In this document: one piece after another, positions 6,988-20,067 of the stretch
How the letters are laid out: every line of letters starts with the position of its first letter
How positions within the stretch are numbered: position 1 is the stretch's first letter
Assembly (NCBI RefSeq): GCF_039645995.1
Contig: NZ_CP147920.1
Span: 2,108,001-2,172,000, forward strand
From: Sulfurimonas sp. HSL3-1
GTDB taxonomy: Bacteria; Campylobacterota; Campylobacteria; Campylobacterales; Sulfurimonadaceae
DNA: 64,000 bases
Direction of reading: 5' to 3'
The notes under the pieces: generated by a model
Database searches by the model: none
Told to the model about the DNA's origin: nothing
Seen by the model: only the letters and a program-made list of their open reading frames with translations
Made by a program: the position numbers and the translations under genes

Positions 6988-7701
6988 TCAGAGTTTGACG
7001 ATGTCCCGGGTATAGTCGCTCAGCAGAACGGTTTCGGCACGTTCGGCCACTTTGGCTTTTGCCTTGCGTTTGCTTCCGAACTGTTCTTTCAGCTCGCGGC
7101 GGAAACTGCCGAAAAACTCGTGGAACTTGTCTTTGCCCAGGACGCCTACCGCCCAGAGGGTGTTGTCGCTGCCGACTTCGAGCACGATGGCCGCCAGCGG
7201 CTGCGGCGCCTTGCCCTCCTTAACCCGGCAGCCGCGCTCCGCGTCGTAGACGGAAGTATGCCCGTCGCAGACGATATCCCCCGCAAAACGCTCTCCGGGA
7301 TTTCGGAACGTGATGAAACTGTCATTTTTGTTAATGTGCGTCAACTGGTGCGGGCAGATCCCGCTGTAGGCAACAATCGTTCCCTTGCTGCCGACGCCGC
7401 CCTTCCAGACGTATTCGTTCCCGAATTCGTCGGTCAGCTCAACGTCTTTCGCCGTCGGCATCGGCAGGTTGACCAACAGGCATGATGTGCCGGCATAGGG
7501 GTAGTTAAAGACATAATTCTCGCCTGTTTTCAGCGCATCGGCCTTCAAAGGAGCGCCGCTGCCGTCGACGAGCTGCACCTTGGCGTAACGTTTGTACAGA
7601 GCGCCGTCCTTGGCCATCAGGGTCTGCCCGATCGTGGAAGGGTTGATCGCGATCACCGCACCCGTTGCACTGAGTACCTTTAAAAAATTTCTGCGTTCCA
7701 T
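6988..7701 (-). CDS. Tat-exported Rieske [2Fe-2S] protein
   Basis: Predicted periplasmic or membrane-anchored Rieske iron-sulfur protein of 237 residues. The N-terminus MERRNFLKVLSATGAVIA is a twin-arginine signal. Cluster ligands are visible as C116-P-H118 and C145-DG-H148. The extra disulfide cysteines of cytochrome bc1 Rieske proteins (CTHLGC / CPCHGS) are absent, so it is closer to non-bc1 Rieske proteins. The C-terminal 60 residues are rich in Lys/Arg. A strong AGGAGG precedes the ATG. It lies 10 bp downstream of the FccB-like gene and is probably co-transcribed, suggesting an electron-transfer partnership. The exact acceptor is unknown. Confidence 0.88.
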   Translation of the reverse strand: MERRNFLKVLSATGAVIAINPSTIGQTLMAKDGALYKRYAKVQLVDGSGAPLKADALKTGENYVFNYPYAGTSCLLVNLPMPTAKDVELTDEFGNEYVWKGGVGSKGTIVAYSGICPHQLTHINKNDSFITFRNPGERFAGDIVCDGHTSVYDAERGCRVKEGKAPQPLAAIVLEVGSDNTLWAVGVLGKDKFHEFFGSFRRELKEQFGSKRKAKAKVAERAETVLLSDYTRDIVKL

Positions 7702-7711
7702 TCCTTGCCTC

Positions 7712-9076
7712 CTATGCGTTGAACATGTCGCGGTACATGCCTTTGGCCCACTCCATCAGGCCACGACCGTTGTTGATGCCGACACGCCCGTCCCATGTCT
7801 CGTTGGTGTAGACATTGGCAAACGTAAAGCGTTTGGCCTTCGCATCATAAGCGTACCCGGCGTTGATCGAAATGGCCAGGACCGGATCGCTGGCAACGGC
7901 CGAGTAGCAGATTGTCAGCGGCGATTCCCACGGCGTTTCCTCTTCCCCATTGATTTTGGCGGCGATCCGTTTGGCGATGTAGACGCCTTCCGTATTGGCG
8001 GTATTGCCGGACTTGCTGAAGCCCATCGGGCGGACGTCGCCCCCGCAGTAGATCTCCGGATGGCCGTTGACCTCGTAGGTCAGCACGTTGATATCGGCCT
8101 CCATCTTGTTGAAGATACTATCTTTCGCGACCCCCGCGACCTCCAGGATCTTACCGCCGCGTACATGCGGATAAAACGCGGCATCCTCAAAGGCGATAAC
8201 ATCATCGTAATCGGTCATCACCTCTTTTTTGTCCAGATCGAACGTCGCGATCTTCGTCCCTGGGTGATACTCGATGTAGTCCTTATAGAGCTTCTCAAAG
8301 GCCGAGTGGAACCCTTCTGCCTTGATCGTGATATCGTCATTTTCATCGATCAGGACCACCTTGCCTTCGATGCCCTCTTTTTTGAAATAATCTGCGATGA
8401 GACAGGCCCGTTCGTAGGGTGCGGGAAGGCAGCGGTAGTTTCCGCCGGGCACCGTCAGGATGAAGTTGCCCTCTTCAAAATCAAGCACTTTGTTGCGCAG
8501 GGTGAGGTGTTCCGAACCCGGTTTGAAGCCCGCCGGGTACTCCGTACGGAGCCGACGTTCCAGCGCCGGGTCCTTCGTCCATCCCGAATAGTCGTAATCG
8601 ATGCCGGGCGCAAGGACGAGGTAATCATAGGTAAGATCGCCGTCGCTCGTCATGACCGTGCGCTTTGCCTTGTCCACCCCGACGACCGTGGCGTTGAAAA
8701 AGGTGTAATTGTTTTCCCGAGCGGCCTGAAGGTAATCGTGTATCAGGAAGTCAAGCTCCACCGCCTCGACCAGCCAAAGGTTGCTGACCGGGCAGGACAT
8801 GAATTCACCGCGCTGTTCGACCAGCACGACGTCGGCGTTCGGCGCATACTTTTTAACGTACTTGGCCACCGTCAGACCGGACCATCCCCCGCCGACGACG
8901 ACCACCCGCGGTGCACCGGTTTTCGGCAGCGCCGCTTCCGTGCCGACACCGACGCTCCCGACATTCGTCATCTCCTCTTCATCCGGCCCGAGTCCCATCT
9001 GCGAGCACCCCGCAGCCCCTATCGCGGCAGCGGCGGCACCGGAAAGTTTGAGCAGATCTCTGCGTGACAATCCCAT
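7712..9076 (-). CDS. fccB: FccB/SoxF-like sulfide dehydrogenase flavoprotein, Tat-exported
   Basis: FAD-dependent sulfide oxidoreductase of about 454 residues. The N-terminus MGLSRRDLLKLSG is a Tat signal, and AAGCS looks like a lipobox, so it may be a Tat lipoprotein. The FAD-binding Rossmann motif VVVVGGGWSGLTVAKY follows. Two redox cysteines expected in flavocytochrome c flavoproteins are visible, in YRCLPAPYERA and in the C-terminal LTICYS block, and CGGDVRP is the second FAD contact. The ATG at 9076 has AAGGAGGGA directly upstream; a longer ORF reading to 9139 lacks this. The next gene is a Rieske protein, not the usual FccA cytochrome c. The upstream 188 bp is very AT-rich and probably holds the promoter. 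Confidence 0.87.
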   Translation of the reverse strand: MGLSRRDLLKLSGAAAAAIGAAGCSQMGLGPDEEEMTNVGSVGVGTEAALPKTGAPRVVVVGGGWSGLTVAKYVKKYAPNADVVLVEQRGEFMSCPVSNLWLVEAVELDFLIHDYLQAARENNYTFFNATVVGVDKAKRTVMTSDGDLTYDYLVLAPGIDYDYSGWTKDPALERRLRTEYPAGFKPGSEHLTLRNKVLDFEEGNFILTVPGGNYRCLPAPYERACLIADYFKKEGIEGKVVLIDENDDITIKAEGFHSAFEKLYKDYIEYHPGTKIATFDLDKKEVMTDYDDVIAFEDAAFYPHVRGGKILEVAGVAKDSIFNKMEADINVLTYEVNGHPEIYCGGDVRPMGFSKSGNTANTEGVYIAKRIAAKINGEEETPWESPLTICYSAVASDPVLAISINAGYAYDAKAKRFTFANVYTNETWDGRVGINNGRGLMEWAKGMYRDMFNA

Positions 9077-9264
9077 GATTCCCTCCTTGTACAATTCGTG
9101 TGGCATACTCAACCATTTTTGGTGAACACCCATTGTCACTTCTTCAAGCTTAAAGGAAGAAGAAACTATTACTGAAAATAATATATTACATTTTACTTAT
9201 TATTTTAAATTTATAAATATTATTTTTAGTGATAGTAAGAATTGTGAGATGGCATGGAGCCCGT

Positions 9265-10956
9265 TCAGGGCTCGAGGATGAGCCTGAAACCGACGGTTTC
9301 GCTCCGGAAAGCGGGAATATTGGAATCGCGGTAGGAGGGCGAGAGTTCCTCTGCACTGCTCTTGATGGATCCCCCGCGGATGATCTTCATTGCCTCATTG
9401 TCGGAAACGAGACTCTCCGCTTTGGAAGGGGCGCTTTTATAATCGGGGGTTGCCCCGTCCTGACACCACTCGGCCACATTTCCGGCCATGTCGAAAAGAC
9501 CGAAGGCGTTGGGCTGCAGCAGACCGCGGGAGTGCACGAATCCGTGGGCATTCGTTGCCATCCAACCATACTGGGCGGCATTAGAGGCACTGTCACCCCA
9601 GGCATAAAGCGTATCGCTGCCGGCACGGGCGGCGTACTCCCACTCCGCTTCCGTCGGCAGGCGGTAATGCTTGCCCGACATTTTGCTCAGCCACTCGGCA
9701 TACGCGATGGCCTCTTCCCAGCTGACGTACGCCACCGCCGCACTCTCGTTTTTGAGCAGTTTTTTCTTGCGGTACTTTGCCCCCGATGCCTTCAAAAAGG
9801 CGCTGTAGGCTTTATTGCCGACTTCATAGGCACTCATTTTCAGCCCCGCTTTAACCGTCACCATATGCACGGGTTTGCTGTTTTCAAACTGCTCGGCACC
9901 CATCAGGAAAACGCCTTCGGGGATCGCCACCATCTCCGCCGGTTCAATGTATTGCGGAGCTTCCGCTGCGGCCGCTGTACCGTCGACCAGTGCCTTCTGC
10001 TCCGCTTTCAGGCGTGCGAGGGCTTCTTGCTGCGCTTTGAGTTCGGCTTCCACCTTCTCCAGCTCCTGGTTCTTGGAAGTGACCGCCCCTTTGTCGTCGG
10101 CAGCACTCTTCTCTTTGGCTTTGAGCGCATTGATGCGGTTGGCTGCCGTCTGCTTATATGCTGATTCGGGATAGGCGATCAGGAAGGCTTCATATCCGAC
10201 GACACTGTTTTTGGCCTCTGCACGCTGCCACGCCTTGTCCGCGGGCGTCAGCAGCTTGGCGGGAACATTGAAATAGAAATCCGCCGCGGCAATACGGGAG
10301 TGGACCCCCGCTTTGGAGAGCTTGTCGGCCAGCGCATCCATATCGTCATGGCCTTTTCCGACCGTTTGCATGAGGTGGCTGAAAAACGGCGAACTGACCG
10401 ATTTTCCGTTCCAGCGTACGAGGGTATCCGCCTCCTTGACATCCTTGACGGCGTCAAGAATCAGCTCTCCGTCCGTCGTATTCGCTTTGCCGCTGTAACG
10501 GAACGCATCGACGACGCCCAGGCTGACCCGGGGCGTGTGGCGCTGCAGCTTCTGCAGCAGAAAGTCAAAACTGACCGCGGAGAGACGCAGTTGGGGCAAC
10601 CCCTCCAGCTTCATCCGAGCCGGCATCATCCACGCCTGTGAATCGTGTACGACCATCCGTCCGCTGTAAACAAGGGTGATGACGGCATTGGGGGTAATCC
10701 CTTTGTCAAAACTGCGGAAGGTTTTAATCAGCTCCGCCCGGTCAAGATTAAAGGCCGTGACCGTCGTGAAGCCCTTGGATTTCAGAAAAGACGCCAGCGC
10801 CTGTGCCGACGAAACTGCCCTGTCATCATTCGTCTCGGTGGTCAGTCCGTTCGCGATCACCAGCGCATAACGCTTCTCACTCTTCATCTGCTCTACGGTG
10901 GCGGAAAAGAGTAATGAAACACCCAGGAACAAAAAGAGGAAAATAGTACGCATCAT
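9265..10956 (-). CDS. Exported caspase-like (pseudo-protease) domain fused to FGE/SUMF1-like domain
   Basis: Protein of 563 residues with a signal peptide (residues 1-19). Residues 28-250 follow the peptidase C14 (caspase/metacaspase) pattern: RYALVIAN at 29-36, LVYSGRM at 95-101, VVDAFR at 148-153. In active members these last two read Y-(S/A)-G-H-G and (L/V)-D-A-C-R. Here His is replaced by R100 and Cys by F152, so the domain should be proteolytically dead. A coiled coil rich in Glu/Lys/Gln spans about 283-322. Residues 335-563 form an FGE-sulfatase/SUMF1-like domain: GVFLMGAE, YRLPTEAEWEYAARAG, NAFGLFDMAGNVAEWC, IIRGGS, VGFRLI. Most bacterial proteins of this kind are not true formylglycine generators, and the role is unknown. 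Upstream is AT-rich. Confidence 0.82.
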   Translation of the reverse strand: MMRTIFLFLFLGVSLLFSATVEQMKSEKRYALVIANGLTTETNDDRAVSSAQALASFLKSKGFTTVTAFNLDRAELIKTFRSFDKGITPNAVITLVYSGRMVVHDSQAWMMPARMKLEGLPQLRLSAVSFDFLLQKLQRHTPRVSLGVVDAFRYSGKANTTDGELILDAVKDVKEADTLVRWNGKSVSSPFFSHLMQTVGKGHDDMDALADKLSKAGVHSRIAAADFYFNVPAKLLTPADKAWQRAEAKNSVVGYEAFLIAYPESAYKQTAANRINALKAKEKSAADDKGAVTSKNQELEKVEAELKAQQEALARLKAEQKALVDGTAAAAEAPQYIEPAEMVAIPEGVFLMGAEQFENSKPVHMVTVKAGLKMSAYEVGNKAYSAFLKASGAKYRKKKLLKNESAAVAYVSWEEAIAYAEWLSKMSGKHYRLPTEAEWEYAARAGSDTLYAWGDSASNAAQYGWMATNAHGFVHSRGLLQPNAFGLFDMAGNVAEWCQDGATPDYKSAPSKAESLVSDNEAMKIIRGGSIKSSAEELSPSYRDSNIPAFRSETVGFRLILEP

Positions 10957-14834: not shown

Positions 14835-14963
14835 GCATGAGTGAGTACATTGATATTAAGTAGACAGATTGCTAAGATAATGTAGTTTGCATCCAGTGAT
14901 TGTTTAGAAGAAAAAGGGTTTTAGTGATTGTGATTGATGTTGTAAAGGAGGTAAATCCGAGAA

Positions 14964-15079
14964 CCAGGCGGCGACCTACGTTCCCAACCCTGAAAGGGTC
15001 AGTATTATCAGCGATGAGAGGCTTAGCTTCCGGGTTCGGAATGGGGCCGGGCGTTTCCCTCTCTCTATAGCCACCTGGA
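14964..15079 (-). rRNA. rrf: 5S ribosomal RNA
   Basis: Minus-strand sequence has the 5S pattern: a terminal helix formed by CCAGGTGGC and GCCGCCTGG, the internal CCGAACCCGGAAG loop and the GGGAACGTAGGTC block. It is last in the rRNA operon, about 125 bp after the 23S. Ends are estimated from the closing helix. Confidence 0.92.
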
Positions 15080-15083
15080 CAAT

Positions 15084-15117
15084 CGGATCTAAAGGCTCCG
15101 GAGAGCGCTTAGATCCG
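15084..15117 (-). repeat. Hairpin between 23S and 5S genes
   Basis: CGGATCTAA (15084-15092) and TTAGATCCG (15109-15117) form a perfect 9-bp stem just upstream of the 5S gene. This is a likely processing signal for release of the 5S precursor. Confidence 0.6.
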
Positions 15118-15134
15118 ACTGTGTCGGTATTAAG

Positions 15135-15198
15135 ATTGTTAAAGTCAACGGGTGCAACTACTTTGATTACAGCCTCTCATATTCAGTAAGGCAGTAAG
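15135..15198 (-). repeat. 3' arm of the 23S precursor processing stem
   Basis: The 21 bases at 15178-15198 are the reverse complement of 18089-18109 with one mismatch. Further short blocks (ATTACAG, TGCAACTAC, TTGTTAAAGTCAAC) pair with matching blocks out to 18187. The arms flank the 23S gene as expected for an RNase III processing stem. Confidence 0.7.
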
Positions 15199-15204
15199 AC
15201 ACTA

Positions 15205-18085
<2,881 letters not shown>

Positions 18086-18088
18086 GCG

Positions 18089-18187
18089 CTTACTGCCTTA
18101 CTCAATATGAATAAGACTGTAATATTTAATTGTAGTTGCAATACTCATGAATTTTACTTCATAAATATTTGTTGACTTTAACAATGA
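18089..18187 (-). repeat. 5' arm of the 23S precursor processing stem
   Basis: Reverse complement of the 15135-15198 arm in several blocks, the longest being 18089-18109 (20 of 21). It lies between tRNA-Ala and the 23S 5' end. Confidence 0.7.
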
Positions 18188-18271
18188 TAATTCAATGAAC
18201 GATTTAGACTCTTAGACACTAAGAAGTCTAATATGAATACTTCATCAAGTACTCGTATTAGGCTTCGTCCG

Positions 18272-18347
18272 TGGTGGAGAATAGCGGGATCGAACCGCTG
18301 ACCTCCTGCGTGCAAAGCAGGCGCTCTCCCAGCTGAGCTAATTCCCC
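18272..18347 (-). tRNA. tRNA-Ala (TGC)
   Basis: 76-nt cloverleaf on the minus strand starting GGGGAAT, with D-arm AGCTCAGCTGGGAGAGC, anticodon loop CTTTGCACG (anticodon TGC), TTCGATCC T-loop and encoded CCA. It lies in the 16S-23S spacer. Confidence 0.96.
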
Positions 18348-18359
18348 ACATAGTGATCC

Positions 18360-18436
18360 TGGTGGGCCTAGGAGGACTTGAACCTCCGACCTCACCCTTA
18401 TCAGGGGTGCACTCTAACCAGCTGAGCTATAGGCCC
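18360..18436 (-). tRNA. tRNA-Ile (GAT)
   Basis: 77-nt cloverleaf on the minus strand with acceptor GGGCCTA/TAGGCCC, anticodon loop CTGATAAG (anticodon GAT), TTCAAGTCC T-loop and encoded CCA. It is the first tRNA after 16S. Confidence 0.96.
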
Positions 18437-18467
18437 CTTCTCGGCATTTCTAATTCAATAGAACACA

Positions 18468-18508
18468 GATCACTGAAAACTAAGCAAGTAAGCGGACAGA
18501 CACAATCT
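18468..18508 (-). repeat. 3' arm of the 16S precursor processing stem
   Basis: Pairs with 20201-20244 with few mismatches; the core CTGAAAACTAAGCAAGT is the complement of the other arm apart from one base. The two arms bracket the 16S gene. Confidence 0.7.
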
Positions 18509-18559
18509 GAAATGTGAGATTTTCTCTTCGGGCCCTCAAACGAATGAGGCCCGGTTACT

Positions 18560-20067
<1,508 letters not shown>

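Follow-up and report, generated by a model that had tools for sequence, protein, structure and literature searches.

The window analysed here, a 64,000-nucleotide stretch of the Sulfurimonas sp. HSL3-1 genome (contig NZ_CP147920.1), contains an intact open reading frame for a 563-residue protein, whose parts and neighbours are listed in Table 1. Its coordinates, strand and length are exactly those first given in a preliminary description of this DNA, which had read the product as an exported pseudocaspase joined through a coiled coil to a C-terminal domain resembling formylglycine-generating enzyme (FGE). This layout was borne out: a Sec-type signal sequence stands at the N-terminus, from which we infer that the protein is exported, and the coiled coil lies between the two halves, at about residues 285–332 as read from the sequence, with a helix at residues 289–331 in a single-sequence model of the whole protein (model pLDDT 38.5). 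The genes for an FCSD-type flavoprotein and a Rieske protein follow downstream on the same strand. An rRNA operon (5S, 23S, two tRNAs and 16S; minus strand, window positions 14963–20067) is also found close to the gene. Its 16S gene shares 90.4% identity with that of Sulfurovum mangrovi and 85.8% with that of Aliarcobacter, which places the organism, a relative of marine sulphur oxidisers, in Campylobacterota.

Table 1. Position of the pseudocaspase gene, its parts and its neighbours in the window.
Feature	Position	Strand	Content or basis
Whole gene, 563 aa	9265..10956	(-)	Signal sequence, C14-like half, linker and coiled coil, FGE-like half
Sec-type signal sequence MMRTIFLFLFLGVSLLFSA, residues 1–19	10900..10956	(-)	Read from sequence
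Caspase-like (Peptidase_C14, p20-type) half, residues 20–240	10237..10899	(-)	Pfam, hhalign, MALT1 profile match, Foldseek
S50 at NDA-motif Asp column, putative S1 pocket	10807..10809	(-)	C14 alignment
R100-M101 at columns of catalytic His and next Gly	10654..10659	(-)	Alignment, hhalign
F152 at catalytic Cys column	10501..10503	(-)	Alignment, hhalign
Helical linker with W..YExFLxxYPxSxY segment, and coiled coil, residues 241–332	9961..10236	(-)	Sequence; single-sequence model
FGE/SUMF1-like half, residues 340–561, without FGE Cys pair	9274..9939	(-)	Pfam; PDB alignment
FCSD-type flavoprotein (sulfide dehydrogenase, flavoprotein chain)	7712..9139	(-)	Pfam FCSD_central, 83 bits
Rieske [2Fe-2S] protein, Tat-like signal	6988..7701	(-)	Pfam Rieske, 22.8 bits

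The N-terminal half belongs to the C14 fold family, with a profile match above the cut-off and a caspase-type core. The Peptidase_C14 match (residues 28–168) passes narrowly, with 22.1 bits (E = 1.4e-4) against a Pfam cut-off of 21.4, and the residues retained at fold-core positions of the C14 alignment are A31, N36, F63, F83, G99, D150, F227 and F229. When the five sequences that have lost both dyad residues were compared by hhalign with 11 intact relatives, the full domain was aligned (probability 99.2, E = 3.5e-19), YSG-R being paired with FAG-H and VDA-F with LDA-C. A PDB search with a profile of the dyad-defective clade described below hit the MALT1 paracaspase (E = 5.5e-11), whose YYAGH and DMCRK motifs align at the places of R100 and F152. 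A two-row AlphaFold model of this half is of low confidence (pLDDT 43.6, pTM 0.49), so its Foldseek matches, MALT1 first among PDB entries, then the bacterial C14 protein GSU0716 and caspases, count as supporting evidence only. MALT1 is thus the closest solved caspase-like fold by both profile and low-confidence model, but it differs in being an active protease which retains its GHG and DMCR motifs.

The replacement of the catalytic His by R100 and of the catalytic Cys by F152, as originally proposed, agrees with the hhalign pairing and with an alignment of 53 C14 domains: in the 33 domains with both dyad residues, the two columns hold His and Cys without exception (33/33 each). The loss is in fact wider than first reported, since the Gly following the His (33/33 in intact relatives) is replaced by M101 and both putative pocket Asp residues are also gone. 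S50 occupies the column of the NDA-motif Asp (33/33 in intact relatives), and a deletion has removed the segment with the ASDG-motif Asp, whose column is empty in every one of the 19 defective domains; these Asp residues were equated with the S1-pocket Asp on the basis of motif position and PMC6426788. The Arg after the Cys, also present in 33/33 intact relatives, is retained as R153 and is variable across the defective clade. An intact His/Cys pair elsewhere in the C14-like half was ruled out, as the only Cys of the protein, C498, sits in the FGE-like half. The protein therefore falls outside the active orthocaspases (peptidase C14B), having neither the catalytic His and Cys nor an acidic S1-pocket Asp, and its orthocaspase p20 domain with substituted dyad residues makes it a pseudo-orthocaspase by sequence. 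From the missing residues we infer that protease activity has been lost; an unconventional activity may nevertheless reside in either half.

Membership of the C-terminal half in the FGE-sulfatase superfamily is clear (residues 340–560, 163.8 bits, Pfam cut-off 23.3), as had been described, to which it can be added that the Cys pair of a true FGE (GGSxxCHxxYC region) is absent, the aligned stretch GGSIKSSAEELSPSYRD having no Cys. The protein thus lacks both textbook active sites. The best PDB match of this half is PvdO (E = 5.9e-23), which likewise has no FGE Cys pair in the corresponding position and goes by the name dihydropyoverdine dehydrogenase in its NCBIfam model. It could be argued from this that the FGE-like half is still a PvdO-type enzyme, with the dead caspase half reduced to binding or positioning the substrate. 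We regard this as rather unlikely, since the half scores 111.7 bits where the PvdO family cut-off is 500, no conserved metal site was identified in it, and the fold is shared with proteins not known as enzymes (TvpA and GldK/PorK are among the matches). PvdO, TvpA and GldK/PorK resemble it in having an FGE-like fold without the Cys pair, but wherever a family model exists the protein scores far below its cut-off, and it belongs to none of these families.

Within the genus, four of eight genomes carry the gene, with relatives at 95% and 84% identity. A further relative is encoded by a genome from another genus (G043, 49% identity), and more distant ones occur in the family. The loss of the dyad is shared by the three same-genus species and the genome from the other genus. 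With the trait columns excluded from tree building, the 19 dyad-defective domains form one clade (support 99/96), which includes a double-loss group of five (support 100/100; R/F four times and K/Y once) and 14 members that keep the His and have the Cys replaced by A, S, G, V or I. The preliminary claim that both dyad positions were lost together is accurate for the 563-residue protein itself but not for its relatives, many of which keep the His without the Cys, and the coexistence of the two types in one clade is better read as stepwise loss. The simplest reading is that the Cys was lost first and the His later. This order is based on parsimony, since a long stem (1.89 changes per column) leads to the double-loss group, making long-branch attraction a caveat, and the tree does not fix the placement of this group relative to two His-only groups. 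Among the genomes searched, 399 from the order and 397 from the phylum, no further double-loss form was found.

The preliminary description took caspase-like/FGE fusions to be usually active proteases. The sampled relatives include both dyad-intact and His-only C14-FGE fusions; a scan of genome contigs returned mostly FGE-only relatives, and a search of viral contigs returned nothing. Two genomes (G006 and G048) each carry two tandem His-only pseudocaspase-FGE genes (L112, 2001–5390; L113, 1517–4814), which suggests local duplication and diversification. Loci L114–L120 encode His-only pseudocaspases of 319–420 residues with no FGE domain, inside the same 19-member clade. Outside the main clade, one C14 domain (L165) has the His and a Ser in place of the Cys (AGH / LDSSRD), apparently a separate loss.

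Within the genus, dN/dS (Nei-Gojobori) is 0.04–0.10 for the C14-like half and 0.07–0.12 for the FGE-like half. The similarity of these values indicates that the dead C14-like domain is maintained as strictly as its partner and is not decaying. A non-functional gene drifting after the loss of activity, which the missing dyad and the long stem branch might suggest, is therefore highly improbable, all the more as the frame is open in five genomes and both the synteny and the R/F or K/Y pattern are kept. Some animal pseudocaspases act as decoys or dominant-negative regulators, and by this general precedent the protein could regulate an active caspase homologue. Such a homologue may exist in the closest relative, G027, which has a second, better-scoring C14 gene (L187, 539150–539785, 66 bits). 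This gene is however absent from the HSL3-1 genome, where, as in G010 and G036, a search at E <= 0.01 finds no C14 match besides the pseudocaspase; these genomes thus contain no recognisable paralogue to regulate. As the protein is also predicted to be exported, we consider a decoy role very unlikely. Finally, the resemblance of the FGE end to TvpA of Treponema denticola, together with the caspase-like variable proteins reported in cyanobacteria (PMC7517822), could indicate a hypervariable display protein of a diversity-generating retroelement, with its variable region in the FGE/C-type-lectin end. We give this almost no credence, since the genome contains no second copy of the final 250 bases that could be the near-identical template repeat of such an element, and the C-terminus is well conserved between species.

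The linkage to sulfide oxidation is the only specific clue to function, and a modest one. The FCSD and Rieske genes accompany the pseudocaspase in 5/5 double-loss genomes, among them the three same-genus species and G043; in G043 the outer neighbours differ, yet the pair is kept and is followed by a SoxY protein. It is conceivable, if doubtful, that a caspase fold, losing first the Cys and then the His in steps, was turned into a periplasmic accessory dedicated to a flavocytochrome-type sulfide dehydrogenase and its Rieske partner, as an assembly factor or a scaffold. Promoter-like sites lie between the pseudocaspase and its neighbour genes, which may therefore not be co-transcribed. Two genomes (G028 and G015) have an empty site (L181, 2651–2885; L182, 4236–4535), where the gene order is that of the window, with the same PLP enzyme of Cys/Met metabolism beside the FCSD gene, but with no pseudocaspase, which is thus an optional addition; as a second FCSD in the HSL3-1 genome also has none, it is not needed for FCSD generally. 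His-only members have other neighbours, such as the Mla-like operon and the transglycosylase of L137. In several genomes (loci L183, L184 and L185) the gene after FCSD and Rieske encodes a small conserved protein of about 134–143 residues, with MADGMGLIMNGLLYNYLDNV in L183 and L184. A literature search found nothing on the FCSD-Rieske pair, and there was no PADLOC match to anti-phage defence.

Pseudo-orthocaspases and C14-FGE fusions are already known, and what is new is a Campylobacterota lineage of them. The former were defined by Klemencic et al. in 2019 as 858 of 9,994 orthocaspases, 90% of them in Alphaproteobacteria and Cyanobacteria, with dyads commonly YS, YA, FS, QC or HA and a conserved pocket Asp, and their conserved clades suggest kept functions (PMC6426788). 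The present proteins share with them a bacterial p20/C14 domain in which the His-Cys dyad is replaced, but are from Campylobacterota, have R/F and K/Y dyads and a His-only sister group, have lost the pocket Asp positions, and are FGE-fused and, by their signal sequence, exported. The same domain order is found in the Metacaspase|FGE-sulfatase fusions of Asplund-Samuelsson et al. (2012), who list a dyad-negative C14|FGE protein for Trichodesmium erythraeum (PMC3501461); the difference lies in the selected double-loss clade, its predicted export and its link to sulfide-oxidation genes.

A fold that is retained although its active site is gone, the predicted export, and a coiled coil connecting two domains of enzyme type together favour binding or scaffolding, and the periplasmic role of this kind proposed in the preliminary description remains plausible. 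The protein is probably a secreted pseudo-orthocaspase serving as a binding part, in which a selected C14 fold without a cutting site is joined by a coiled coil to a non-catalytic FGE-like fold. Under this proposal, the protein-cutting site was dismantled while selection retained the caspase fold, and the helical linker and coiled coil join to it an FGE-like fold also without known catalytic residues. The two folds may then serve as recognition surfaces in the periplasm or at the surface, multimerised or spaced by the coiled coil, and in this lineage they could be of service to the neighbouring periplasmic sulfide-oxidation proteins. One family thus holds an intact, His-only and double-loss series in which a protease fold stays under strong selection after the loss of its active site. 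The function of a pseudo-orthocaspase thereby becomes testable, with several genomes offering no recognisable active paralogue to confuse the result.
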